A program made the translations under genes and the position numbers. The notes below the pieces were generated by a model that saw nothing but the letters and a program-made list of their open reading frames with translations, was not told the origin of the DNA and ran no database searches. Shown one piece after another: positions 1 to 15,918 of a DNA stretch of 25,333 nt (the first letter of the stretch is position 1; each line of letters starts with the position of its first letter). The DNA lies in IMG/VR virus record IMGVR_UViG_3300030098_004752, positions 1-25,333 of that record; one strand, given 5' to 3'. The stretch comes from a virus.

Positions 1-968
1 TCGTAAGTTTGTTGTTCTTCGTCTAATTTTTTTACTTCTTTTTCTAATACTTTATCTTTCTTTTCGTTTATAACATCTTCAGCTTTCTTTTCTTTAAATT
101 CCGCAATTGGAGGAAGATCTGAAATAGTTGGTCTTTCTGTTATTTCAGGAGTAACTACTTTCGGTGGAGTTCTAGACGATTCTAACGATATCGGCTCAGG
201 TATTGCTGTTGGTAACGTGTCATCTTTAGTTGTTTTAACTTTGGGGGTATCTACTCTGAGTTGAGTTAAACTATCAGTCGTCATTGGTTGAGTATTATCT
301 AAAGTAGTGGTATCAACCATACCTGTTACCCTATGTTTGTTTAACCTGTTTATCCAACCTCTATTAAACTCATAGTTTGTTCCTTGTTGACTAGATCCTA
401 TATAGCTTTGTTCTCTTCTAGTGGCATAAGCGTCTAAAAGTCTATCGCCACCAATATCATCACTTTCAATAGCAGAGTTTACATGAAATATAGCATCATC
501 TAAATCTTCGAATTTATCAATTGTATAACCAGCGTTGTTTAAAGCTGTTAACATGGTTTCGTTGCCCTCTCCCTTATTACCAAAAGTAAAATTTTGATTA
601 ATCATAGCATCATATATAGACGCGGCGATTCTTTTATCTTTTATCTGACCTAGTTTATGTTTATCCCAAAGATGTGTTTTAAAATAACCAGTAACAATGT
701 CTTTACCTTGTTTTTCATCTACGTTAAATTCGTTTTCAAACTCCTCATTTAAAGCAGTCCAACCTTCCAAATCATCAGGTATAGTTTTATTATTCCATTG
801 AGCCCAAGCACTTAAGGTTAAACCATAAAAAGTTTTTGAATAAGCAATACTTCCGTCACCAAGTTTAGTTTGGTTACCGATATCACCTTTCATTTCGTTT
901 ATACCCGCTTCAGCGTCTCTAGCTAAATCATTGGCATATGAAAAACTATTTGCTTTGTCTTTGGTCAT
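1..968 (-). CDS. Partial protein with GH108-like peptidoglycan hydrolase domain (C-terminus beyond left edge)
   Basis: This gene starts with ATG at 968 and stays open through 322 codons to the window edge. Residues 1-210 have the layout of the GH108 / peptidoglycan-binding_3 N-acetylmuramidase family: candidate acidic residues (E20, E25) before TFYGLTLSAWAQW (compare 'YGIT'), IAASIYDAMINQ (compare 'FD.AVN.G'), and a final LLDAYATRREQSY then RGWINRL (compare 'R...Y...F..GWL.R'). The classic E-G-G motif is not intact (NEMKGD instead), so activity is unproven. Residues ~215-295 form a Thr/Pro-rich linker, then a Lys/Glu coiled coil begins. Following the two likely cargo genes, it suggests a large ejected protein that opens the cell wall, in the manner of T7 gp16 but with a different enzyme fold. 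Confidence 0.6.
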   Translation of the reverse strand, partial: MTKDKANSFSYANDLARDAEAGINEMKGDIGNQTKLGDGSIAYSKTFYGLTLSAWAQWNNKTIPDDLEGWTALNEEFENEFNVDEKQGKDIVTGYFKTHLWDKHKLGQIKDKRIAASIYDAMINQNFTFGNKGEGNETMLTALNNAGYTIDKFEDLDDAIFHVNSAIESDDIGGDRLLDAYATRREQSYIGSSQQGTNYEFNRGWINRLNKHRVTGMVDTTTLDNTQPMTTDSLTQLRVDTPKVKTTKDDTLPTAIPEPISLESSRTPPKVVTPEITERPTISDLPPIAEFKEKKAEDVINEKKDKVLEKEVKKLDEEQQTY

Positions 969-988
969 TTATTGTTATTTTATTAAAT

Positions 989-2824
989 TTACTGCGTAAT
1001 TATATTTCCCTTCGCGTCTGTTGGTGCCCAATTTGTAGGGGAAAAAGTGATTTCTGAATATGTGTGATATTCATTTTGTCTGTCTCTTAGCTTTGCCCAA
1101 TCAGCACCACTAACGTCATTGCTTAATTGGTCTATTTCAAATTGATCAGGTGGATCTAACTGTGCTAAATGTCTTTTTAATTTTTCTAATTCGCTAACTT
1201 TGTTTTCCCCAGTGAAATCAAATTCTTTTCTTGCTAGATTTTCACCATCAATAGTTACAACTCCATCGTCAAAATCAAAATCAACTTGACCATTCTCTAT
1301 GTAGTCTGCAAAAACATCTTTAAATGCTTTAGCTATAGAACCATCATTATCTAATCTTGTTGTTAAGTCTTGTCCTCCCACGTCTAAATTAATTAAATTT
1401 TTTGGAAATGCGATATCGGTAAGAGTATTATTATATGCTGCTTTTTTTCTAGTTAACGCAACTTCTTGCGATCTCCAAACATCTTGCTCTCCTTGACCAT
1501 CGTTAAAATATCTTCCCTTTTGCTCAAAATGAAGTTTTCTTTTCGCGTTAAAAGCATCTTCATTAACTTTACCCATAAATGCTGAATATTTTTTAATTAT
1601 CCATTCTTTATTTTGATCAGGATTTACACTACCATCAGTATCATATCCTCTTAAAAAGTTTTCTAATAATTGTTTTTGTTCAGGAGAATGTTCACCATTT
1701 TCTAGCATAGCGTTCCATTCCGCGCTTCCATATTCAATACTTTTACCTGCTCCTAAATTAAAAACCAAAGGACTACCATCTAATGCCTTATACATGTCTG
1801 GATGTTTATCTGTATTTACTCCATTTATAAATATATTTGAAAAAGGATTATCAACTCCATCATCACTAAAATCTCCAAAAACTTGGTGTTGTAGTTGAAC
1901 ACCACTAGTATCACCTTCTCTTACCATTTTCTCCCAATCACTAGCATATGAATCAGCGCTTTTAGGATTTAATAAATCAGCATCAGTTTTTTTAGTTGTT
2001 ATATTTTGATTATATAAAGCTAAAGCTTTTGTCTTGTTTTCAAAATTTTCTCCTTTAGTTGGTAAATTTTTACTATTATATATTTGAAATTTTTCAGTAT
2101 TGTAATAACCATCTATTTTATCTGGTAAGCTTTTCCATTTATTATGTTCGTTTACAGCACTTTGGTATCTAGTTATTAATTTTTTATCATTTTCGGTAAG
2201 AACATAGTTTTTATCATTAGCTTGTTTATCTAATATACCTTGAACTGTATTACCGGTTTCATCGTCTTTAAAGGTTGTTGGATCTGGAGTTGTTTTTTTA
2301 GGAATAGCCACGTTCACTTGTGTATATCCATTATTTTTATTAGGATCTCTTCTGGTTTCAACAAGATAATTACCAGCCGATATCATGTTATTGTAATATA
2401 TATGATCTGCGTTTGCTCCAGGTCCAAAATCCCCAGCGTCACGATTTGTTTGGGTGATACCAGTAATATCCTCTATTTGTTGTATAATACCATTATAATC
2501 ATCAACGTAAAATTGTTTTTGTTGTTTTGAAGTGACATCTTTTCCTCTATTAGATACGTAATTTTTTTTATAACCAGGTGTTATTTCAGCTATTAAATTT
2601 GTAAATTGTTGAGATGGATTACCTGTTACAACTTCAAATTGGTCATCTATTTCTTTTTCTAAACCAGCATTAATACTTTGTTGTAATTTCGCTTGCTCAT
2701 TAAAAGCATTCATCGCGGTACCTATCGCAGCACCCCACATTAAATTATCATCAGTGAATTGAGCTGCTTCAGCACCTGCTGTTGCTTTAATTAAACCTAT
2801 ATCTGCTTTTCCGAATTGTGCCAT
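989..2824 (-). CDS. Probable internal virion/cargo protein (611 aa)
   Basis: No family recognised. The N-terminus (MAQFGKADIGLIKATAGAEA) has a helical Ala/Gly/Gln-rich segment to about residue 60. The rest is hydrophilic, Asn/Asp/Lys/Glu-rich and mixed helical/beta. No signal peptide, enzyme motif or long coiled coil is evident. It lies between the gp14-like protein and the partial muralytic-domain protein. In T7-like phages the middle protein of such a trio (gp15) is a helical tube component, so the same role is a reasonable guess from position only. The stop is 20 bases before the next start and the start is ATG with an A/T-only leader. Confidence 0.65.
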   Translation of the reverse strand: MAQFGKADIGLIKATAGAEAAQFTDDNLMWGAAIGTAMNAFNEQAKLQQSINAGLEKEIDDQFEVVTGNPSQQFTNLIAEITPGYKKNYVSNRGKDVTSKQQKQFYVDDYNGIIQQIEDITGITQTNRDAGDFGPGANADHIYYNNMISAGNYLVETRRDPNKNNGYTQVNVAIPKKTTPDPTTFKDDETGNTVQGILDKQANDKNYVLTENDKKLITRYQSAVNEHNKWKSLPDKIDGYYNTEKFQIYNSKNLPTKGENFENKTKALALYNQNITTKKTDADLLNPKSADSYASDWEKMVREGDTSGVQLQHQVFGDFSDDGVDNPFSNIFINGVNTDKHPDMYKALDGSPLVFNLGAGKSIEYGSAEWNAMLENGEHSPEQKQLLENFLRGYDTDGSVNPDQNKEWIIKKYSAFMGKVNEDAFNAKRKLHFEQKGRYFNDGQGEQDVWRSQEVALTRKKAAYNNTLTDIAFPKNLINLDVGGQDLTTRLDNDGSIAKAFKDVFADYIENGQVDFDFDDGVVTIDGENLARKEFDFTGENKVSELEKLKRHLAQLDPPDQFEIDQLSNDVSGADWAKLRDRQNEYHTYSEITFSPTNWAPTDAKGNIITQ

Positions 2825-2835
2825 ATTTTAAATTT

Positions 2836-3597
2836 TTATCCTATTCCTAGGAATTTCATCATTGCTTTTTTACTTTCTTCGTCAGTTGATGCTACACCTC
2901 CAGCAACTGTACCAAGTCCTTGTGCCATCATTTGTTTTCCCTGCATAACAGCTTGTTGAGCACCTGTTACTGCTTGCGCATCCATACCTAATAAAGTAGA
3001 TTGTTTACTTTGTTCCATTTGCATTGACGCTAATTGACTTTGGTAAGCTCCTTTAGCTTCTAATTGTTGTAATTTAGATCCTTCAGCTGCTTGTAATTGA
3101 TCTATTTTAGCCGCTTGTTGCGCTGCTAGTAATTGGTTTTTAGCTTCTTGTTGTCCTATTGATGCCGATGCTCTTTGTGCTTGTGTCATCGCTTGACCCG
3201 CCATAGCTTGCGCTAATCCAGCTATACCACTACCTCCAGCCGCTCCAGCTAAATTTTGCATCATACTCGCTTGTTGTTGTTGAAACATTTGTTTTTCAAA
3301 TTGAGCTTGCTGTTGATTAACTGTTAAATCTTCAAAAGTATTTTCCATGTTCTCGTATTGATTCTCTAAGTTTTCAAATGGATTTTCAATACTAGTATCT
3401 AAACCTCTATATATAGATTTTTGTCTATTGTATGCTGCTCTAGCGTTTGACAATGCTTTTTTTCTTTTACCACCCCAGTCATAACCCATTGCCATCTGTC
3501 CAAGACCCATCCCAATAGTAAGAAGAGGAAGCGCAGCATAATATATGCCAGAACCATCAACGCCAAATAAAAATTCTTTAATTAAATCTATTGTCAT
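2836..3597 (-). CDS. Probable internal/ejection protein, gp14-like (253 aa)
   Basis: The N-terminus has a hydrophobic stretch (about residues 18-39, YYAALPLLTIGMGLGQMAMG) that could insert in a membrane. It is followed by a basic patch (GGKRKKALSNARAAYNRQK) and an Asn/Glu-rich segment. From about residue 95 the chain is Gln/Ala/Met-rich, with glycine spacers (GAAGGSGIAGLAQAMAGQAM) and long low-complexity helices. This composition matches the small internal virion proteins of T7-like and crAss-like phages, which are ejected first and form a pore in the outer membrane. It heads a run of three likely cargo genes. Assignment is from composition, order and membrane segment, not a catalytic motif. 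Confidence 0.65.
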   Translation of the reverse strand: MTIDLIKEFLFGVDGSGIYYAALPLLTIGMGLGQMAMGYDWGGKRKKALSNARAAYNRQKSIYRGLDTSIENPFENLENQYENMENTFEDLTVNQQQAQFEKQMFQQQQASMMQNLAGAAGGSGIAGLAQAMAGQAMTQAQRASASIGQQEAKNQLLAAQQAAKIDQLQAAEGSKLQQLEAKGAYQSQLASMQMEQSKQSTLLGMDAQAVTGAQQAVMQGKQMMAQGLGTVAGGVASTDEESKKAMMKFLGIG

Positions 3598-5682: not shown

Positions 5683-6063
5683 TTATTTACTACTTTCTGA
5701 AATCTCTGAACCAATAGAAAATAATTCAATTTTCTCTTGAGAATAATTTACAAAATTTACTTCAGCATAGTACCCTTTTAAACTAGATGAATTAACTAAT
5801 TTGTTTTTTTCAAACATAATAAAACTATTGGGACCAGGTACTTCACTTTGACGTATAATACTATCGTCATATATAACACGTATACTACCTTCAGATATTG
5901 CTACAACAATACCAAGTTTTTTAATTGGATCTGTATCTTGCCACGTACTAGTATAAGAAGTATTTGAACCATCCCAAACTTGGTGAGTTGATACATAATA
6001 TATTGTATCTCCAACTTGAAGACTAGTATTAATAGATTGAAGAGGAATTGTTATAGATCTCAT
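5683..6063 (-). CDS. Small virion structural protein of a marine phage type (126 aa)
   Basis: A beta-rich, soluble protein. The N-terminus has VGDTIYYVSTHQVWDG, a middle strand KLGIVVAISEGSIRVIYDD, and the conserved-looking end SLKGYYAEVNFVNYSQEKIE followed by LFSIGSEISESSK. I recall the same C-terminal pattern (L.GYYA.V.F.N.S..K.ELFS.GSE...SSK) in small structural proteins of marine T4-like and other aquatic phages, so it seems shared across tail types. The position between the giant nozzle gene and the 674-residue protein suggests a tail or head-surface role. It has no signal peptide or catalytic motif. The start is ATG with an A/T-only leader, and the stop is 11 bases before the next start. 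Function unknown. Confidence 0.75.
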   Translation of the reverse strand: MRSITIPLQSINTSLQVGDTIYYVSTHQVWDGSNTSYTSTWQDTDPIKKLGIVVAISEGSIRVIYDDSIIRQSEVPGPNSFIMFEKNKLVNSSSLKGYYAEVNFVNYSQEKIELFSIGSEISESSK

Positions 6064-6084: not shown

Positions 6085-9000
6085 TTAAAAATTACCATTA
6101 CCACTACCATCTCCAGCGCAATCACTATCAACATTGTAAACAGCGTTAGCATCATAATTTGAATCAGTTGAATCAGTACATCCATACATAGAATTTAAAT
6201 CACTTAAATCATTTGATGGCGCTGGTATTGCCATTTGGTTATTTTGCCAGAAAGTATATATCGCTGGAATAAGCGGATCAGGATCGTTATAAGCAGAAGT
6301 TCCTTTTAAGTTTATTGTTCCAGATATAGATCCAGAAGTAGAAAGTTGAGCTAATAAATATCTATCATTATTATCAAAATTAGTATCGTTACTTTCTAGA
6401 CTTCTTACCGCCATCCCTATACCAGGATAAGTAATACCATTATATGTGTTACTATCATTAAGTAAAATCTCAGAGCTTGTAACAGTTAGATTACTTGATA
6501 GTGTTGGCGCATCATCACCTTCACCTTGATAGAAATCACCTAACGCAATCCAAGTGTTGTACACTGATGCAGGGAATCCAGCGGCTGCAACCAAGTCGGC
6601 GTTAATCATTTCCCATTGCACTGTTGGACTGCTAAAGAAAGTAGGGTCATTAAACCACTGTGCGTCAGTTTCTATTCTATAAGGTGTATTTAAATCTCCA
6701 AACATAGCTAATACTCTATCCATACTACTAGTTTGTGTACTAGATTTTGCGTATAACCTATATGTTCTAATAGCATCATCAGCGCCACTAGCATCAGCGA
6801 GGTTTGGAATAATCTCCTCAATTGATATATTGTATATCCAAGCAGCCTCATCTGTTCCAGCAGGTAAACTCGAATCACTAGAAGAGTAAATTTGTATTCT
6901 ATTATAACCACATGAACCAATACCAACACCACCATTAGCCACAGAGGTTGTATCTAAAATAATTTGAGCTGGTAATGTAATTTCTTCCGCGGTTGCACCT
7001 TCCCAAGTGTAACTTGATCCAGGATTGCCGTTACACGCTCCGTTTGCATTCGATCCCGTTCCATCACTATCACCAAAACCATATCTAACTCTTAATTTTC
7101 TACCATAAGTACCGTGAATAGTTAATTTATATTTTTTATCTTCATCATAAAAAGATGGATCAAAATTACCATGGGTTTGATGTATCCAAGTCCCACCTTG
7201 TCCACAATTGTGACACATTTTTAATCCAATTTCACCATTTGGATCAATATCTTGCCAATCAGTAGTTGGATCAGGCCCATTACCTCTCGTCCAAAATGGG
7301 AATCCTTGTTCATTTGGATTCCATGTGTCGTTAGCATCTAGCGTAATTAAAGGTTCTGAAAAATCATGATTTGATACTATATTATCACCAGTATTATCTA
7401 TCTCTTCTAATTCTAAACTTATATTTGAGTTTGGAGGCTCTGATAAAGCTGGTGTACTAGCAGGATTGTAATTAAGACCTAGTTCAGAAGCAGGAACACC
7501 TCTATGCAACCAATGATTCGTGGTCAAACTATGAGTATCAGTTCCAAAACCATCAATAACACCATTAACATCAACCCAAGGTATGTTAACATTATAATTA
7601 GCTGCTATATCAGTAAAAGACTGGGTATGAAAGATTTTAGCTAAATAATAGTCTTGCATATCATATGCGCCACCACAATTAAAATCTGCCGGAAGATCTG
7701 TACATCCATATATAAAATCATTTGTTGGAGGATATTGACAACTACCATCATCAACAGTGGCGCTTGGATCGTAGTTCATCGCTGTATTATCCGTGCAACC
7801 AGGAACCGTGTAAGTACAAGAACCATCATCTGTATTACAATTGTTTTGGCAGAAGTTGTTGGCCGCTTGATCCGTACAGCCATATATAAATGGAACACAA
7901 GAATTATCATTAAAGTTACAAGTTGTACAAGTGTTAGTCATGTTTGCATCTGTACAACCACCAATAGCTTCTGGTATTTCAGTAGGCCAACCATACGCCC
8001 ACTCGGAACTAACTTGATCACAACCCATGCTTACTCTAACTCGATAGTGTGTTTGATCATTTAAACCTAATATAGTGTGAGTAGTTATAGTTGGATCAGC
8101 AATAACTGTAGCAACCCAACTTCCTACAGCTAAATCACCCACTACATCCCACTCTGCATATTCTAATATTGTTTTTGTATAATCAAGTACTGTTCCAGGT
8201 TGATTTGATATAGTTGGAATATTCCAACCAACTTGTATATTACCTGCTCCTGTTGTAGAATTAACATATCCAATAGAAGTATGTATACTAACTGGATTAC
8301 ACCACTCGCAACCACCATCGTTTGGATCACTAGCGTTATAGTTAGTAGCTCCAACTGCATTACATCCATCATATGTACAACACTCGTTATTACCAGCGCC
8401 GTCGTTGTCCTCGTTACAAGGTGTGTTTACAGCGGGTATAGTACCCCCATCAATCGCCCAATAATTACTTGCATCATTATCCATACATCCATAAGTATAA
8501 GGCACGCAACTCCCATCGTCCACATCGGCACTAGCATCATAATTATATTGATCAGATTGCGTACACCCTAATATAGTTGGTACACAAGATCCATCGTCTG
8601 TATTTGCTTGTGGATTGTAATTATAATATAAATAATATAACGTGTTTGTGTTAGGAATAGTATCCTGTGAACTATCCGTACATCCATATACAAAAGGTTC
8701 GCAAGGATTATTAGGATCATTAGTATTGGCATTTGGATCATAATTAAAGGCTGTTGGATCTGTACACCCGTAATAAACACAAGTACCATCGTCTGTGTTA
8801 CAACCATTTTGACAATAATTAGCAGCGTTTGGATCTGTACAACCTTCTATTATTGCAATACAGGTTCCATCATCATAAGCTGCTATATTATTATAATTAA
8901 GCGCATTAGGATCCGTACAACCGTATACGCTATTAAACGTTACTGCACCAGTTACCCTTCCTAAACCTTGAAAAGAACTATCTGCATTATCAAAACCAGA

Positions 9001-12000
9001 TGAAACAGTACCATCAGCAAGAGAAGTAACAGCTCCTGTTTTACCTTTTATATAATTAAACCATTTACCTTCTTTTTCTATAAATTCTCCTACCGCGCCT
9101 TCTTCTTTGTTTGTTTTAATAGTTCTAACATACCAACCTTCTTTATCTTCTAAATTATAATGATCGTTATTAACAAGTGTTGTGTTTCGCAGGTTTGTTC
9201 CAGGAACATAAGTGTTGTATGTTAGTAGTTTACTTACTCTAGATTGTGATCCTTCATAATTTAAAGTATGGAAAGTTTTAATACTGCTAGGAGCATCATT
9301 TAGTATAGCTGTAAAGCTAGATGGTTGAAAACGACCATAAAAATTGTTTCTAGGGGAGTGCTTTGTGTGTACCCAAGGTATTCCTTTGTTAAATGTAAAA
9401 TAATTACCATTACAATTATCGCCAGCTTCAGGAATATAACTTTTAAAAGTTGACCATCCTTTTACGTCCTCCCTATAGGTTGTCGTTGCCGATAAACCGC
9501 CTCCGCCTACAGATGTTTCCGAGAATAAATAAGGAGTAATATTGTACTCATCTCTTGTCTTATCATAGCTTCCAACATAATTACCCTTAATAGGGGAAGT
9601 TCCACCATGACCAAGATCATTTTGAAACGCACGCTCCCAATATTTTTTCATGCCGTAATCAGATATTGGTGTTAATCCATCTTTTGACAATCTCAAAACT
9701 TTTCTTCTACTACTATCTGTAAAATAACATCTATAAGCTTGAGAAGCAAATGACGCTGGATCTTTAGATATACCATATTCACCAGCATATGGCACTGCTT
9801 GTCCTAAAACATTGTTTGTAGATACTAAATTAACATTTCCATCAGCGTTGTATAAAGCATCTTTATTGGCTAAAATCTTTAAGACTCTATCTTCACACAA
9901 CGCTATAAGATCGCCATCAGCTGAAGATCTTGAATGTAATTTCTGTATACTACCATAAGTAGGATTTAAATCTTTAGTTATTTTTTCAGCTTGTATGAAT
10001 TGATTTAGATTATTTGTACCACTAGTTGAATTATATATACCAGAATATATTAATCCTGATTTTCTATTTTCTTCTTGATATTCTTCAGCTAAAGTTGTTG
10101 AAACCTTAACTCCATTAAATATATATGGTAAGTTGAAATTATCTCTAATTCTATTAGATTCTACACCGTTTCCAAAAGAATAACAATTAAACCAATTTAA
10201 TTTATAATTGCTATTATATAGATTTCGATTAATAGTTATTAAATTATTATTATTATCAATAGCATCAATTTTTATATCAAATTCTATTCCATTAGCTTTT
10301 GTTACAGTTAACATATCTCCAACCTCAATATCATTATCTATTACATCTACTTCTATAATGTTATTTTGTTGAAAATTATTATTTAAAATACTACTAGTCC
10401 AACTCGTTGTACCGTGTGTTACTATAGATCCTAATGGTAAAACCGTTTGTATAGTTTCCGCGTTTAAAAACAAAGCATTATTTCCACTTATTTCATAATA
10501 AAGATCTAAACCTTCGCTTTCTTTAGGTTCTGTTTCCCATACAAATGGATTTTCAGGTAACACTCCTCCATCATCATATTCTTCTACAGCTTCTAACATT
10601 GATAATCTATAACCAACAGCACCTATACCAGCTTGAGTACTATCCCAACGATCTTGCATAGTATCAGTATTTTCTTCTGTCCAATTACTTGCTGAGTTCA
10701 TTCCAACTTGTCTAAAATACATTCTTTGCCCTTCAGCAAAAGCTGTACCTCCTGGAAAATCAGTTGATGGTACAAAAATCTTTTCGTAACCTGTTAAGCG
10801 TATTTTCCATCCAAAATCTTCTTGGGTTATATTTTTAATAATTATATTTGTTGGTTCTTTAGGAGTACCATCTATATTATACTGGTGTAATTGCATTCCT
10901 TTTTTCAACTTATATCTACCTCCCCATTGTTCACACGCGCCCTCTATATTATCAACAATTACATAAATATCTTTCATGTTTGTAAAATCACTACTAATAG
11001 CACGTATAGTATAACCAAAATCCAAATCATCAGTAGCAGTAGTAGTTCCAAGAAAAGGTTCATCTAATAAAACCTCACCATTATCATAGTTAATAGATAT
11101 AATTGTAGCTCCAATATTTTTATTATTAGTTTTTATATTAGCAGGTGTACCAGCATCATACACTGTCATTCCTATTTTTACAAAATCTAAATTGTTCGAA
11201 TCATTAACAGTTATTGTGTTACTACTTTGTGTTACGCTACATTCTATAGTTGTAATTTCTTTTCCTATTTTTAACCCATTTTGTATTGGTGTACCCACAG
11301 GAACCGATGGATCCCACTCCATTTTTGGTTGAACTCTAAGACCCCAAGACTTATGATAACTAGAAGGGCATGCTACAAATTTTTTGTGTCTTCTGTATTT
11401 ACTTCCTATTATTTCTCCAGGATCGTCACTGTTTGGCCATCTTAAACCATGAAATCTATTAACATCTTCAATAATTGTATAAACAGTTTCAGAAGGATCA
11501 TCTTCCCATCTAAAATTAAAACTTGAATTCATTCTACTTACAAAATCAGTTGTTAAACCATCATTGTATTCAGGATTATCTTCTCCAATTCCAAAAAAAG
11601 TTTCTATTTTATTATCTTTAAGTGACCATTGAGGATAAAGAGTTGATTGTGATACAAATTGATTATCTAATCCCCAGTCATCATCTTTGTTTTTCATTCC
11701 AAAACCACCAAACGCTATATTTAATTGACTTTGATTACTCCATTGCTGTACCCCATTCCCAACAGATTGAGAATGTGTCATAATATTATTTAAATCACCA
11801 ACACTACCTTGAGTAGATAAATGCGGATAATAATAAGTGTTATTGGCAGGCCATATACTCCATTCTCTAATTGACTTGTCTATAAACCAAACTCCATCTG
11901 GATATGAAATTGCATTTGGAATTTGGTCAGAAGGATCAGAATCACCCTTGTCACCAGTATATGTATCGATAAGTCCAACTTGACCAAAATAACTTCTTCT

Positions 12001-15000
12001 AGCCCATAATGGTCTTAGTTTATCATTACTATCTGGATAGTCACTATCTAAACTGTAGTTATATGTAATTTTATTAGTTCCATCTTCCTCTATTATAGCA
12101 CTAGAAGAAACTTCTTTTAAAAGACTATTATTAGGATTATCATCACCTAAAAGATAAACCATTTTTGAAGATGTCTCTATATAATCTATAGAAGAATTTT
12201 CATTAGTTATATTTGCTTTTATTTTACCATCATTAGATATTTTAACAAAAAACCTTCCTTCAAATTTTGGTGAATTTTCTACTTTAGCTTTTACAAATCT
12301 TATCTTTATACCATTACTTATTTTATTAGGACTACTAGCATTATCGTAAATAAAATCTATATCACTTTTTAATGGTTTTTCAAGCGTTATATAATATTGG
12401 GTTGGTAAAGTATTATCATCTCTATCAGATGTTATTTGTGCTATTTTATATTCACCAGATTTGTTTGTATTAGATACAAATCTAATAAATAAATCATCTT
12501 GAATTTCATCTAAATGAGATAAACTAGATTTACCAAACTGACCCCCATTATAATCAAGTATAAAATTATTAGAATTAACTCTAGGCGCATCTTGAAGATC
12601 AAAACCACTAACACCAAACACTTGTGCTGTTTCAGCGGGTGTATTTCCTGTAGCTTGAGTAATAATTTTACTAGCATCATGAGTAACACTTCCAATACGT
12701 ATTCTTTTTGTTTTAACAAACGTAGGGGCATCGCTTTCTATAGCTAGTATTTTATATTTATCTAAATTTTCTAAAGCGTCATTTCCATCTCCTTTCTTTA
12801 AAAATAAAGTAGTATCAATATCAAGTTTATTACGATCAGAAGAAGGAAATGCTAACCAAATATTACCATCCTCAGCATCATACCAACGATCCATTGCTAA
12901 GTTATAATATTCACTAGATGTTTCTTTAATAAAGAATTTAAAAAACTCAACATTGTCTGGGGCTTGACCTTGTAAACTAGCTATTAATCTATTGGAATTT
13001 ATAGATTGTTCTTTATTTACTTTAAAACCGCCAGATTCACTAGTTAAAACAGGTGTTTCTCTTCCGTATTTATCCGTAAAAACAACTCCAAGTTTGTAAT
13101 CTCTTAATGATTTAATTGATTTTTTTGGATTTCCAGGATTTAAATCCTCCCAACTTGTTAAATAACTATGAAATTTAGGTTTATATTTTATATCAGCGGT
13201 ATTTAAATTAATATTTTGTGTATAATTTCCATATACTATTCTATTACCAGTAACTTCTTGTGCTAATGCTTTTCTAGGAACGTTATCCCAAGATCTTAAA
13301 AGTTGATTAGGAGCGATTGTTGCTTTTATTGTCTCCGATGTTATTTTATATTTATTTGCTTGCCAAGCATTTTTACCGTTATATATATAATTATCATCAA
13401 GTTGGTTTAAAGTATCTACAAGATATATATTATTCGACTTTTCTTCTTTATATAATATATCTATCGAAACAACATCTTTCGGTAAATCTTGAGTGATAAA
13501 ATTTTGTAATTCTATTTCTGTAACTGTATTTACCATTCCTAAGTTGTAACCATCTTTAGGCTCAAACATAAAGTTTCCAGGTAAAAAAGCAATTTCCGAC
13601 CAAGGAGCAAATGTAGAATACTCACCGTCTTTATATTTATATCTATAAGAAAATCTAGGGAATTTTAATTCGAATATAGGATTATCTGATGACTCTAAAT
13701 CAACAGCATAATTTAAAGTAAAATCATTAACACTATCTCCGTACGGAGGTTGTGGGGGAACTCCAAGTACGTTTAATATTTCGATTTCTACATGAGCAGT
13801 ACCAGCAGCAGAATCAGGCCACATATTACCATAAGGAGCGGTAGGATCTTGATCATTTGCAACAGAAGAAAAACTATTGTATTGCCAGTTTGTTATTCTA
13901 CCTCTTAATCTATAGTTTAACAAAGGGATTGAAGGAGGGGTTCCATCTTCGTTAAATTCTTTTAATAATAGCACATCTCCCTCTTTCCATGCTAAATCAA
14001 AGTCATCATTATTATTTATATCAACCTCTATTTCAAATCTTATAGTTTCTCCAACAGAAACATTAGAAAAATCATATACGTTTAAAGGTCTTATTATAGA
14101 AGATTGATTTACGTTGTTATTGTTAACTGGATCTACAGATGTAGTTGTTATCCCAGCATATGTTAAATTTGGATCTCTACCACTAGATAAATTTAGATTA
14201 ACCGCGCTTTTAGGAGCTTTTTTTATCACTGTAATATATTCCTCTGTAGCAATTGGACCTGTATAGTTATTTGATCCTGGATCATACCCTTGTGAACTAT
14301 TTACAATTCTAGTAGATATATTACCACTAGGATCAGTTCCATTTATACTACGTGGTATGCTTATTTTTTTAGGTTCAGAAAAATTATCTGTCCAAAACAA
14401 CATATCATCAATAATATTTATACCAGTAATTAATCGACTAGAAGTATCGTTATGTATTGTGTTTGAAAATCCTAATGTTCTAGGACCATCAAATTGCAAT
14501 GCTTGGTACGCGCAATTACAGTTTACATTAGTTGTAATATCTAAAGGTTCGTCGAAATAAATAACATTAAGAGGATTATTTGTAAAAGAAAACGATGGAC
14601 TAGCAACTTGATTTGCTGTCCAATGTGGTGTAAGTATATTTCCAGAGCAATCATCTATTGTAATCATTGCGGTTGGATTCATTTGCATATAATTGATACA
14701 ACCACCATTAGGAAACCACCAATTTGGATCTATTTGATCACCAGTTGACCAACTACCCATAGAACTTATATACGCTGGATTTATAAGTAAATTTTCATTT
14801 GGATTTATATTTGTAACAGTATTAGTTACTTTAACTATAATATCAATATATTGACCATCATAAGTACCCGTAAGACCAGAACCAGTACAGTTAGTGAAAC
14901 AAGCTTCATGGGCTGGATCAGTACTTTCCAATATAGGATTAGTAAGAGTTATTAAATCATTACTTAACTCAAGTCTAATCATATCAACACTAAGTTGAGA

Positions 15001-15918
15001 TTGTTGATAAGTAGCTGTGACTTGTGTAGCGCTTATTATAGTTGTGTCAACAGGAACAACTGGAGCTTGACCAGAATAAGGTAGTATTTCTATTTCAGCA
15101 CCTGTAAAAGAACTAAGACTATTTTGTAGCGCTGAAGAACGAACAAAAACTACATTTGGCTCCATAGTAGATTGTTGACCTTCCCAATTCTGACCACTAC
15201 CTCTAGAATCAAGAGGAAGAAATATACCTTGTGGATAATAATACTGACTAGTAACATTACCACCTTGAAAATCATAATCCCAAAGAACTTGACCATCATC
15301 AATATTTGTAATATTAACTTTATTAGATTTGTTAACACCAGCTGCTATACCTTGAACCGTCCAACCAATATCTATTGCTTCCAAAACCTCTGGCGAAACA
15401 GCTAGTTGGGAAATACTAGCGTTTATATTATTTGATATTGTAAAAGCATATTTATCAACAAAAACAAACTCACACTCACTGTTAATAGCAATATATCTAT
15501 CGTTACCCTCAATCTTTTTTCTTAAAATTACATCTTTTATGGTATACATTTGAGACCAATCACTTGGCAAGATAGTGACACCATTTGCATCATCAAAATT
15601 TGAATTTGTACTACCAGCAAACCAATATAAATAATTGTTTTTTTCATCTGCTATAGTAGCTACAGTACGCATATCATAAACATTATTCATATTAAGATCA
15701 GGACAAGCAAGAGTATTACCTGTTATATTAGTTATACTACCAATATCTCCATAACCCTGGGTTCCACCCATATGTATGCTACTTATTCCACCCCCTTTCT
15801 CAGTAGTAGCAGACACTTGTATATTCATCGCATCTCTATATTCTCCCTTTGGAACAAGTCTTTCATCAAGATCCTTGTTCATCTTACCACCGGTAAAATT
15901 ATGCTTAATTTCTGGCAT
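6085..15918 (-). CDS. Giant nozzle/muzzle ('stabilisation') tail protein with adhesin-like C-terminus (3277 aa)
   Basis: One uninterrupted 9.8-kb frame. The N-terminus FTGGKMNKDLDERLVPKGEY followed by RDAMNIQVS is the signature of the P22 gp10-like 'stabilisation' (nozzle/muzzle) proteins reported in crAss-like phages. This family closes the tail tube and holds DNA in until infection. A second conserved stretch at about residues 1990-2100 (EDRVLKILANKDALYNADGN, VPYAGEYGISKDP, RLSKDGLTPISDYGM) marks the end of the core. From residue 2333 the chain changes to GCTDP-type repeats, an FN3-like domain, a jelly-roll-like region and a further module, ending in a Gly/Asp-rich tail. That extension is about 945 residues and is probably surface-exposed for host binding. 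The core also has a Cys-bearing insertion around residues 340-480. No signal peptide is seen. It begins three bases after the connector gene. The core call is firm; receptor binding is inference. Confidence 0.8.
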   Translation of the reverse strand: MPEIKHNFTGGKMNKDLDERLVPKGEYRDAMNIQVSATTEKGGGISSIHMGGTQGYGDIGSITNITGNTLACPDLNMNNVYDMRTVATIADEKNNYLYWFAGSTNSNFDDANGVTILPSDWSQMYTIKDVILRKKIEGNDRYIAINSECEFVFVDKYAFTISNNINASISQLAVSPEVLEAIDIGWTVQGIAAGVNKSNKVNITNIDDGQVLWDYDFQGGNVTSQYYYPQGIFLPLDSRGSGQNWEGQQSTMEPNVVFVRSSALQNSLSSFTGAEIEILPYSGQAPVVPVDTTIISATQVTATYQQSQLSVDMIRLELSNDLITLTNPILESTDPAHEACFTNCTGSGLTGTYDGQYIDIIVKVTNTVTNINPNENLLINPAYISSMGSWSTGDQIDPNWWFPNGGCINYMQMNPTAMITIDDCSGNILTPHWTANQVASPSFSFTNNPLNVIYFDEPLDITTNVNCNCAYQALQFDGPRTLGFSNTIHNDTSSRLITGINIIDDMLFWTDNFSEPKKISIPRSINGTDPSGNISTRIVNSSQGYDPGSNNYTGPIATEEYITVIKKAPKSAVNLNLSSGRDPNLTYAGITTTSVDPVNNNNVNQSSIIRPLNVYDFSNVSVGETIRFEIEVDINNNDDFDLAWKEGDVLLLKEFNEDGTPPSIPLLNYRLRGRITNWQYNSFSSVANDQDPTAPYGNMWPDSAAGTAHVEIEILNVLGVPPQPPYGDSVNDFTLNYAVDLESSDNPIFELKFPRFSYRYKYKDGEYSTFAPWSEIAFLPGNFMFEPKDGYNLGMVNTVTEIELQNFITQDLPKDVVSIDILYKEEKSNNIYLVDTLNQLDDNYIYNGKNAWQANKYKITSETIKATIAPNQLLRSWDNVPRKALAQEVTGNRIVYGNYTQNINLNTADIKYKPKFHSYLTSWEDLNPGNPKKSIKSLRDYKLGVVFTDKYGRETPVLTSESGGFKVNKEQSINSNRLIASLQGQAPDNVEFFKFFIKETSSEYYNLAMDRWYDAEDGNIWLAFPSSDRNKLDIDTTLFLKKGDGNDALENLDKYKILAIESDAPTFVKTKRIRIGSVTHDASKIITQATGNTPAETAQVFGVSGFDLQDAPRVNSNNFILDYNGGQFGKSSLSHLDEIQDDLFIRFVSNTNKSGEYKIAQITSDRDDNTLPTQYYITLEKPLKSDIDFIYDNASSPNKISNGIKIRFVKAKVENSPKFEGRFFVKISNDGKIKANITNENSSIDYIETSSKMVYLLGDDNPNNSLLKEVSSSAIIEEDGTNKITYNYSLDSDYPDSNDKLRPLWARRSYFGQVGLIDTYTGDKGDSDPSDQIPNAISYPDGVWFIDKSIREWSIWPANNTYYYPHLSTQGSVGDLNNIMTHSQSVGNGVQQWSNQSQLNIAFGGFGMKNKDDDWGLDNQFVSQSTLYPQWSLKDNKIETFFGIGEDNPEYNDGLTTDFVSRMNSSFNFRWEDDPSETVYTIIEDVNRFHGLRWPNSDDPGEIIGSKYRRHKKFVACPSSYHKSWGLRVQPKMEWDPSVPVGTPIQNGLKIGKEITTIECSVTQSSNTITVNDSNNLDFVKIGMTVYDAGTPANIKTNNKNIGATIISINYDNGEVLLDEPFLGTTTATDDLDFGYTIRAISSDFTNMKDIYVIVDNIEGACEQWGGRYKLKKGMQLHQYNIDGTPKEPTNIIIKNITQEDFGWKIRLTGYEKIFVPSTDFPGGTAFAEGQRMYFRQVGMNSASNWTEENTDTMQDRWDSTQAGIGAVGYRLSMLEAVEEYDDGGVLPENPFVWETEPKESEGLDLYYEISGNNALFLNAETIQTVLPLGSIVTHGTTSWTSSILNNNFQQNNIIEVDVIDNDIEVGDMLTVTKANGIEFDIKIDAIDNNNNLITINRNLYNSNYKLNWFNCYSFGNGVESNRIRDNFNLPYIFNGVKVSTTLAEEYQEENRKSGLIYSGIYNSTSGTNNLNQFIQAEKITKDLNPTYGSIQKLHSRSSADGDLIALCEDRVLKILANKDALYNADGNVNLVSTNNVLGQAVPYAGEYGISKDPASFASQAYRCYFTDSSRRKVLRLSKDGLTPISDYGMKKYWERAFQNDLGHGGTSPIKGNYVGSYDKTRDEYNITPYLFSETSVGGGGLSATTTYREDVKGWSTFKSYIPEAGDNCNGNYFTFNKGIPWVHTKHSPRNNFYGRFQPSSFTAILNDAPSSIKTFHTLNYEGSQSRVSKLLTYNTYVPGTNLRNTTLVNNDHYNLEDKEGWYVRTIKTNKEEGAVGEFIEKEGKWFNYIKGKTGAVTSLADGTVSSGFDNADSSFQGLGRVTGAVTFNSVYGCTDPNALNYNNIAAYDDGTCIAIIEGCTDPNAANYCQNGCNTDDGTCVYYGCTDPTAFNYDPNANTNDPNNPCEPFVYGCTDSSQDTIPNTNTLYYLYYNYNPQANTDDGSCVPTILGCTQSDQYNYDASADVDDGSCVPYTYGCMDNDASNYWAIDGGTIPAVNTPCNEDNDGAGNNECCTYDGCNAVGATNYNASDPNDGGCEWCNPVSIHTSIGYVNSTTGAGNIQVGWNIPTISNQPGTVLDYTKTILEYAEWDVVGDLAVGSWVATVIADPTITTHTILGLNDQTHYRVRVSMGCDQVSSEWAYGWPTEIPEAIGGCTDANMTNTCTTCNFNDNSCVPFIYGCTDQAANNFCQNNCNTDDGSCTYTVPGCTDNTAMNYDPSATVDDGSCQYPPTNDFIYGCTDLPADFNCGGAYDMQDYYLAKIFHTQSFTDIAANYNVNIPWVDVNGVIDGFGTDTHSLTTNHWLHRGVPASELGLNYNPASTPALSEPPNSNISLELEEIDNTGDNIVSNHDFSEPLITLDANDTWNPNEQGFPFWTRGNGPDPTTDWQDIDPNGEIGLKMCHNCGQGGTWIHQTHGNFDPSFYDEDKKYKLTIHGTYGRKLRVRYGFGDSDGTGSNANGACNGNPGSSYTWEGATAEEITLPAQIILDTTSVANGGVGIGSCGYNRIQIYSSSDSSLPAGTDEAAWIYNISIEEIIPNLADASGADDAIRTYRLYAKSSTQTSSMDRVLAMFGDLNTPYRIETDAQWFNDPTFFSSPTVQWEMINADLVAAAGFPASVYNTWIALGDFYQGEGDDAPTLSSNLTVTSSEILLNDSNTYNGITYPGIGMAVRSLESNDTNFDNNDRYLLAQLSTSGSISGTINLKGTSAYNDPDPLIPAIYTFWQNNQMAIPAPSNDLSDLNSMYGCTDSTDSNYDANAVYNVDSDCAGDGSGNGNF
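6088..6183 (-). repeat. Terminal degenerate GCTD repeat and Gly-rich tail
   Basis: Residues 3246-3277, the last 32 of the giant protein. One unit starts GCTDSTDSNYDANAVYNVD and closes with a lone SDC instead of DDGSC, followed by AGDGSGNGNF and the TAA stop. It is separated from the other repeat blocks by about 500 residues, so the array brackets the intervening domains. Confidence 0.8.
6304..6780 (-). other. Module resembling large secreted proteins of marine Bacteroidota
   Basis: About residues 3047-3205. It contains RTYRLYAKS, QWFNDPTFFSSP, YNTWIALGDF and DRYLLAQLSTSGSISGTINL. From memory, a module with the order 'TYRLY ... (S)FYQ/F ... DSWVTIG ... R.LFAQLTTDG.ISG' occurs next to GCTDP repeats in giant secreted proteins of marine flavobacteria. 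Its co-occurrence here with the same repeats makes chance similarity less likely. Function is unknown. Confidence 0.5.
6814..7386 (-). other. Jelly-roll/carbohydrate-binding-like region of the giant tail protein
   Basis: About residues 2845-3035. It starts with IVSNHDFSEPL and then has Trp-rich strands (FPFWTRGNG, GGTWIHQTHGNF), a YKLTIHGTYGRKLRVRYGFG pair and a final NISIEEI strand. This 'N-x-D-F ... W ... Y-x-L-x-I/F' layout is like carbohydrate-binding beta-sandwich domains found at the ends of fibre proteins and in polysaccharide-degrading enzymes. No enzyme motif is visible. The family cannot be named from sequence by eye. Confidence 0.45.
7675..7959 (-). repeat. Second block of GCTDP/DDGSC repeats (4 units)
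   Basis: Residues 2654-2748. Units start GCTDANMTNT, GCTDQAANNF, GCTDNTAMNY and GCTDLPADFN. The first ends DNSC, the second and third DDGSC, and the last is truncated at NCGG. The second unit (FCQNNCNTDDGSC) closely matches one in the first block (YCQNGCNTDDGTC), suggesting that units have been copied within the gene. Confidence 0.88.
7984..8286 (-). other. Fibronectin type III-like domain within the giant tail protein
   Basis: About residues 2545-2645, between two GCTDP repeat blocks. Visible FN3 hallmarks are an early strand ending NIQVGWNIP (the conserved Trp strand), a central TKTILEYAEWD strand, and the C-terminal pair HTILGLNDQTHYRVRVS, equivalent to the usual 'L.P.T.Y.VRV' Tyr corner. 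The domain ends in an SSEWAYGWPTEI linker. FN3 domains are common spacers or adhesion modules in phage tails and bacterial surface proteins. Confidence 0.7.
8299..8922 (-). repeat. First block of GCTDP/DDGSC cysteine-aspartate repeats (about 7 units)
   Basis: Residues 2333-2540 of the giant tail protein. Units start GCTDPNALNY, GCTDPNAANY, GCTDPTAFNY, GCTDSSQD, GCTQSDQYNY, GCMDNDASNY and GCNAVGATNY. Most end in DDGTC, DDGSC or a degenerate form (the third ends PNNPC, the last PNDGGC). Spacing is about 20-40 residues. The two cysteines per unit and the Asp-rich DDG loop suggest a disulfide-stapled, possibly calcium-binding fold, like the repeats of secreted proteins in marine flavobacteria. 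Degeneracy increases toward the C-terminal end of the block. Confidence 0.88.

Follow-up and report, generated by a model that had tools for sequence, protein, structure and literature searches.

What do the last three genes of IMG/VR virus record IMGVR_UViG_3300030098_004752 do: do they help its DNA into a new host, or does the cell-wall enzyme at the start of the third gene open the old host at the end of infection? The record was analysed whole, over its 25,333 bases (hereafter the window); its long open reading frames (ORFs) tile the minus strand, and the trio lies behind the tail genes of a late operon. A sequence-only reading, made without database searches, had likened the trio to the T7 ejection genes gp14-gp15-gp16. 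We consider it very probable that the trio forms an ejection-protein (DNA-ejectosome) cassette and that the virus is a podovirus of Bacteroidota. In size the third protein probably comes closer to N4 than to T7, and relatives join this N4 size to a T7-style N-terminal enzyme domain, here called the head.

The trio in relatives and cultured phages

First, the three ORFs do stand in the proposed place and order on the minus strand, encoding 253, 611 and at least 322 amino acids (aa), and they recur elsewhere. Relatives of gene 1 were found in 10 contigs, with best-segment identities of 45-68%; a gene 2 homologue is present in nine of these, the tenth (L014) ending just past gene 1, and the start of gene 3 is readable in eight, L006 and L014 ending earlier. 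Homologues of the gene 3 head were found in 7 contigs. Because homologues are conserved across contigs, the three ORFs are, by sequence comparison, conserved genes and not chance ORFs. The homologues of gene 2, of which the closest is that of contig G004 (36.5% identity over residues 1-589), were reached through the gene 1 loci; searched alone in IMG/VR, gene 2 gave no confirmed match. When the three proteins were searched directly in 50,697 phage records, genes 1 and 2 matched nothing, and the two matches to gene 3 were insignificant (E 0.1 and 0.7).

Second, the trio resembles its T7 counterpart in gene order (small, mid-size, large), in the sizes of the first two proteins (196 and 747 aa for T7 gp14 and gp15) and in the cell-wall enzyme at the N terminus of the third. 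Like T7 gp14, the small protein is rich in Gln and Ala (14.6% Gln and 15.0% Ala; T7 gp14, 10.2% and 17.3%) and has a weak hydrophobic stretch. The membrane segment that had been read into it is weak: in a crude hydropathy scan the best 19-residue Kyte-Doolittle mean, at residues 10-28, was 1.28 (1.31 in T7 gp14). For gp14-like proteins, a 2022 review gives between two and five predicted membrane helices (PMC8954989). Unlike T7, the third protein carries a GH108 domain in place of a transglycosylase, and in relatives it measures 3366-3620 aa, compared with 1318 aa in T7; the same review lists gp16-like proteins at 609-1337 aa, a range outside which the relatives' giants fall, and describes how the cell-wall domain can shift from gp16 to gp15 (PMC8954989). 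The T7 analogy thus holds for order, size pattern and composition and does not extend to sequence homology.

Third, the window's order of terminase, portal, major capsid protein, structural genes and trio corresponds to that of cultured phages. In the Cellulophaga phages phi18:3 (Baltivirus, Pachyviridae) and phi38:1 (Callevirus, Pervagoviridae), a trio with the same size order sits at the same place in a related late operon: gp120, gp121 and gp123 in the former (227, 499 and 1935 aa) and gp99-100-101 in the latter (200, 549 and 1691 aa). The corresponding trios measure 205, 449 and 3757 aa in elemoD (gp70-71-72), 302, 644 and 3859 aa in the Manatee Spring phage, and 216, 500 and 1829 aa in Panino. 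For phi18:3 gp120, gp121 and gp123, the record notes annotation from experimental tandem mass spectrometry (MS/MS) proteomics, which reportedly stems from Holmfeldt 2013; gp122, a 103-aa ORF between gp121 and gp123, is without this note, and the phi38:1 trio is annotated by similarity to another phage's proteins. The trios of phi18:3 and phi38:1 show little or no sequence similarity to that of the window, and their third proteins are shorter and without a Pfam cell-wall enzyme.

Fourth, the window is a fragment of a Bacteroidota-type podovirus. In order of transcription, PHROGs identifies a terminase large subunit (cut), a portal, an unmatched 395-aa protein, a 487-aa virion protein, which aligns with the major capsid protein of Cellulophaga phage Calle_1, structural and unknown proteins, and a 3277-aa structural protein. 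The portal matched 87 phage records, all at below 60% identity, by host 68 of Flavobacterium, 15 of Cellulophaga, 2 of Tenacibaculum, 1 of Maribacter and 1 Manatee Spring Caudoviricetes; Calle and Tenacibaculum phage Gundel are described as podoviral (PMC8776804). A Sphingobacteriales metagenome-assembled genome contig also holds the homologous module, so Bacteroidota hosts are indicated from this side as well.

Several results weigh against an ejection cassette. The link to the MS/MS-detected proteins of phi18:3 consists of gene order and neighbours only: hhalign against phi18:3 gave probabilities of 36% (gene 1) and 8% (gene 2), and with blastp no link to gp123 emerged, either from gene 3 of the window or from its relatives in the contigs. 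Pfam found a cell-wall enzyme on the third protein in none of the five isolates, scanned whole (Panino, phi38:1 and phi18:3) or over the first 1107 (Manatee Spring) and 1304 residues (elemoD). To T7 there is no sequence link, with hhalign probabilities of 0.3% for gp14, 0.6% for gp15 and 0.1% for the head profile against gp16, the T7 side being a single sequence each time. The hydrophobic segment of gene 1 is weak, as said. The AlphaFold2 model of the 611-aa protein (mean pLDDT 73.9; helices and strands) has no significant fold match in the PDB, all rows lying below Z 5 and the T7 core chain 9jyy_G appearing only at Z 2.6 among unrelated rows. Finally, gene 3 is cut by the window's end, and G004, the closest relative for gene 2, has a split gene 3. 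In BFVD, 8 of 230 matches to the gene 2 model reached E ≤0.001; these are viral proteins, 520-678 aa long, that align at TM-scores between 0.16 and 0.23 and may be homologues.

A GH108-type head on the third protein

The third protein had been credited with a muralytic N-terminal domain resembling GH108, and a GH108-type head does occupy its first 217 residues or so. Pfam PF05838 scores 22.2 bits on the window's gene 3, with a cut-off of 21.2, and exceeds the cut-off in all seven contigs with a related head (24.3-47.8 bits in G001, G002, G003 and G006; 26.8-36.8 bits in L036, L037 and L038). PHROGs assigns the head to phrog_315 'endolysin' (E 4.1e-5), a label that names the enzyme type. PG_binding_3, the C-terminal companion domain, scores 16.5 bits, below its cut-off of 24.6.

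The AlphaFold2 model of the head has a mean pLDDT of 75.6, with ten-residue means of at least 90 from residue 31 to 120; behind the head, pLDDT falls below 50 at residues 242-292, and a predicted helix spans 288-321. Aligned with VIA-align, which gave a second look at Foldseek candidates, the best 4 of 129 chains were 7dnp (Brucella SagA; Z 13.7), 2ikb and 2is5 (both NMB1012; Z 11.8 and 11.2) and 2nr7 (Porphyromonas; Z 9.8), all of which we take to be GH108-type proteins; next came a chitosanase (Z 9.4), and T4 lysozyme (1l97) reached Z 5.8. Foldseek's own table for the model (11 rows, E up to 10) held no significant match and none of these four chains, and the sequence of the third ORF found only chance matches in the PDB. 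A profile that includes the phi18:3 lysin gp092 ranked 2ikb and 2is5 first (E 0.011 and 0.015). The hhalign match of this profile to gp092 (E 6e-29) is circular, gp092 being one of its rows, and was not counted; a profile built without gp092 found nothing in gp092 (probability 2%). On the Pfam scores, the relatives and the modelled fold together, the head is of GH108 type.

Is it active? GH108 enzymes act as muramidases through a Glu; we take E-G-G to be the catalytic motif and Glu20 to be this residue. The sequence-only reading had found the motif altered and activity uncertain. The motif indeed reads E-A-G at residues 20-22, the Gly after the Glu being Ala, yet in the alignment of eight heads (window, G001, G002, G003, G006, L036, L037 and L038) Glu20, Asp29, Gly31, Thr46, Tyr48 and Gly49 are among the invariant columns, whereas the two positions behind the Glu vary: EAG in four (window, G001, G002 and G006), EGG in two, EGE in one and EGN in one. 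Glu20 is also aligned to the Glu of the EGG motif of 2ikb and 2is5, although the aligned segment alone lacks significance. The doubt is therefore weaker than was thought: since the putative catalytic Glu is kept throughout and only the next Gly is changed to Ala, the head is probably active, as judged from sequence. PhaLP lists GH108 as N-acetylmuramidase (PMC8310338).

The same alignment bears on the idea that the altered motif marks a loss of activity, leaving a dead relic or one that does no more than bind peptidoglycan, which we judge quite unlikely. The Ala at motif position 2 in the window, G001, G002 and G006 would fit such a loss, as would the stretches of the domain that are absent from the 181-aa GH108 lysin of phi18:3, but the invariant residues speak against it, and siblings hold other cell-wall enzyme families in the same slot.

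One giant body under several heads

In three relatives the GH108 head is the tip of a giant ORF, of 3593 aa in G001, 3620 aa in G002 and 3366 aa in G006. The first 2995 aa of the G001 giant found no match at E 0.01 in the phage records named above.

These giants bear directly on whether the third ORF could be a stand-alone GH108 lysis endolysin used at the end of infection. The label of phrog_315 and the biology of the family lend this some colour: GH108 is common in endolysins, where it stands before a PG_3 domain in 94.3% of those cases (PMC8310338), and both phi18:3 gp092 (181 aa, GH108 plus PG_binding_3) and UE-lysin (calculated 23 kDa; PMC12661215) belong to the same catalytic domain family. 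Those two proteins stand alone, however, whereas here the domain is the N-terminal head of a long protein: the window's ORF extends at least 105 aa beyond the domain and leaves the window, the head is fused to 3366-3620-aa proteins in the three relatives, and PG_binding_3 stays below its cut-off. The ORF also lies directly behind the two other trio genes, and none of the 14 window proteins hit a holin or spanin family in PHROGs, so the endolysin beside a holin and spanin, the outcome that would have overturned the earlier claim, was not what we found.

Lysins elsewhere in these genomes are a further consideration. In G001 and G002, both fragments, no other lysin was found among the three families searched, which would suit an endolysin role; G006, with the same head, has a separate lysin-sized ORF for an M15 peptidase, which does not. 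Such an ORF, of 159-161 aa, occurs in 4 of 11 related records (G004, G006, G007 and G010; G001 and G002 lack it), and in G006, G007 and G010 it follows the giant downstream, on the same strand; Amidase_2 and Amidase_3 were found in none of the 11, some of which may, like G001 and G002, be fragments. Isolates annotate lysin-type genes upstream of the terminase (phi38:1 amidase gp083, phi18:3 gp092, the Panino endolysin and the Manatee Spring M15 peptidase). Taken together, we hold an endolysin to be extremely improbable.

Homologous giants with different heads (GH108, SLT transglycosylase and glucosaminidase) are what is new here. Among the eight readable gene 3 starts, three carry GH108 (G001, G002 and G006), three SLT (G007, G008 and G010), one glucosaminidase (G009) and one no recognised head (G004). 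SLT was scored by Pfam in G010 only, and G007 and G008 were assigned through identity to it: G007 (3309 aa) is 94% identical to G010, and G008 shares the SLT head by DNA identity, its contig ending inside the gene. The bodies under these other heads are homologous to those above; the whole genes encode 3314 aa in G010 and 3548 aa in G009, whose glucosaminidase was recognised by Pfam. For the G010 head, PHROG 342 'internal virion protein with endolysin domain' is a further match (E 1.5e-5), behind better-scoring tail and unnamed families. That the enzyme is a muramidase rather than a transglycosylase is thus right for this phage and wrong for the lineage. A fourth head type proposed for G004, tail lysozyme PF18013, was rejected (E 1.2, far below the cut-off, and without PDB support).

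The exchange can be followed in DNA. G006 (GH108, its head 60% identical to the window's) and G010 (SLT) encode giants that share 91.8% identity over the 3107 aa following the head. In their DNA, gene 2 and gene 3 as far as base 6 (codon 2) align at 82.9% identity, the head region gives no match at E 1e-10, and similarity resumes at 87.8% from base 781 (G006) or 667 (G010) for the rest of the 2.4 kb compared. Against G006, both G007 and G008 diverge and rejoin at nearly identical places, and G007, G008 and G010 match one another through the head. We infer from these alignments that the GH108 head is one of several interchangeable heads placed by recombination on the same giant body. An assembly chimera is unlikely because several records show the GH108 state and several the SLT state. 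Among the titles and abstract starts listed by literature searches, none described GH108 or exchanged cell-wall heads on ejection proteins, though such a description may exist.

In G004 the third gene is split into ORFs of 621 and 3174 aa with overlapping stop and start. The window might likewise encode its head on a protein of about 600 aa with a separate giant of about 3200 aa next, making a four-gene cassette. We give this a minor but real chance. G004 is the closest relative of gene 2, and GH108 heads sit on separate proteins of 682-1194 aa in four other contigs, but wherever a GH108 head follows homologues of genes 1 and 2 (three of three relatives) it is fused to the giant. The function proposed here would stay the same.

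Those four contigs hold a second arrangement (L024:1102-18746, L036, L037 and L038), in which a GH108-headed protein (1194 aa in G003, 682 in L036, 762 in L037 and 917 in L038) is followed by a 580-684-aa protein and then another ORF, which encodes 4000 aa in G003 (locus L024) and is cut by the locus end in the others. Three relatives share a conserved ORF of 223 aa, read in a different frame, whose overlap with the giant gene's 3′ end amounts to 124 bases.

Residues 1756-3570 of the G001 giant are 49-91% identical in five relatives, and a 2498-aa protein (L047) shares about 870 C-terminal residues at 54%. In this C-terminal part a set of motifs, D-F-D-x-T, L-T-A-R, K and D-D, is conserved in all eight aligned sequences, one of which is a stand-alone 229-aa viral protein (L046); we take it to follow the HAD phosphohydrolase scheme. 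Pfam matches in this region were below threshold (DUF2608, 21.0 against 22.6 bits; HAD families for L046), and NCBIfam matches likewise; profile search of the PDB hit no HAD structure, and the resA chains it returned (E 0.0005, about 45 residues) were judged spurious. The motifs are thus suggestive of a HAD-like region in the part of the giant outside the window. The seven closest giants also have strongly basic C-terminal ends, with a net charge of +9 or +10 in the last 30 residues, a value reached by 0.08-0.35% of internal 30-mers; by the same count the last 30 residues are not unusual in T7, Panino, phi38:1 or phi18:3. T7 gp16 is reported to need five basic last residues (PMC8954989).

A more far-reaching proposal is possible, if doubtful at present: the wall-cutting head would be a genuine cassette, with recombination swapping muramidase, transglycosylase and glucosaminidase in the stretch from codon 3 to about codon 222-260, and the conserved C-terminal module of about 870 residues with HAD-type phosphohydrolase motifs would enter the cell as an enzyme that works during the earliest minutes of infection. 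If the motif set is real, an enzyme would be carried in with the DNA.

A proposed route of DNA ejection, and the wider locus

By analogy with T7 and N4 (PMC8954989; PMC12633501), all three proteins would be carried inside the virion head. When infection begins, the small protein would leave first and form an outer-membrane pore, and the 611-aa protein would build a tunnel across the periplasm. The giant would then be threaded out; its muramidase head would make a small opening in the peptidoglycan, and the long body would reach the inner membrane or cytoplasm and help the DNA in. Virion location, ejection and enzyme activity are the inferred parts of this scheme.

Could the giant instead be an N4-type virion RNA polymerase, and the trio a Schitoviridae-like gp50-51-52 set? 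The pattern K-x6-YG, which is sought for this polymerase, occurs once each in the 621-aa protein of G004, the 4000-aa protein of G003 and phi18:3 gp123, perhaps by chance, and is absent from the seven closest giants; neither Pfam nor PHROGs found a polymerase in the 3593-aa G001 giant. The sizes do match, N4 ejecting gp50 of about 3500 aa together with a mid-size and a small protein, gp51 (644 aa) and gp52 (150 aa) (PMC12633501). The gene order is opposite, however, and we regard a polymerase as very improbable. The giants also recall phage polyvalent proteins, which are very long and multidomain and of which some have lysozyme domains thought to help entry (PMC5512222); unlike these, the G001 giant has no metallopeptidase or LPD domain recognised by Pfam, whether scanned whole or in four pieces covering residues 752-3593.

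If the trio is indeed an ejection cassette, the T7/N4-type ejectosome would extend to Bacteroidota podoviruses, and N4-sized proteins with their own wall cutter would combine two known plans. G006 and G010, with non-homologous heads on giants otherwise so alike, would amount to a natural domain-swap experiment, which suggests that any chemistry will serve the head as long as glycan strands are cut, and which offers a way to ask if head type tracks the peptidoglycan of the host. Cultured relatives of the lineage (phi18:3, phi38:1, the elemo phages and Panino) exist for proteomics and cryo-electron microscopy.

Table 1. Features of the trio and of related loci; positions refer to the window unless a locus is named.
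Feature	Position	Strand	Basis or remark
Gene 1, 253 aa, Gln/Ala-rich	2836..3597	-	ORF; resembles gp14 in place, size and composition; predicted to form the outer-membrane pore
Gene 2, 611 aa	989..2824	-	ORF; gp15-like by place and size; predicted periplasmic tunnel protein
Gene 3, 5′ part, 322 aa read	3..968	-	ATG start, no stop before window end
GH108-type muramidase head, residues about 5-217	318..956	-	Pfam PF05838; model alignments
Glu20 codon, putative catalytic acid (E-A-G in place of E-G-G)	909..911	-	Invariant in 8/8
Stretch behind head, residues about 240-322, mostly low-confidence linker	3..251	-	pLDDT; sequence; leads out of window
HAD-like motif set	L028:10947-11726, L046:9977-10666, L047:17049-17828		In giant or stand-alone protein
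223-aa ORF	L019:5437-6108, L021:5670-6341, L020:7361-8032		

Further observations concern the sequence around the trio. A/T-rich sequence without a Shine-Dalgarno-like motif precedes gene 1 (window 3660-3598) and gene 2 (2835-2825) on the minus strand. With one mismatch allowed, the Shine-Dalgarno-like pattern has 28 matches, compared with 16.9 expected, and none falls at the starts of the trio genes; starts without such a motif are expected for Bacteroidota. Upstream of their terminase genes, the Manatee Spring phage, Panino, elemoD and phi18:3 (L015, L016, L017 and L030) have annotated GroEL and/or GroES/cpn10-like genes.

The 3277-aa structural protein (window 6085-15918) exceeds the complete homologues from related contigs (2064-2470 aa) by about 800-1200 aa. 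Positions 3-118 of PHROG 18548, a family of 241 positions, match residues 2144-2265 of this tail-type protein, and positions 195-238 match the neighbouring 126-aa protein (window 5683-6063), as if one gene had been split or fused.

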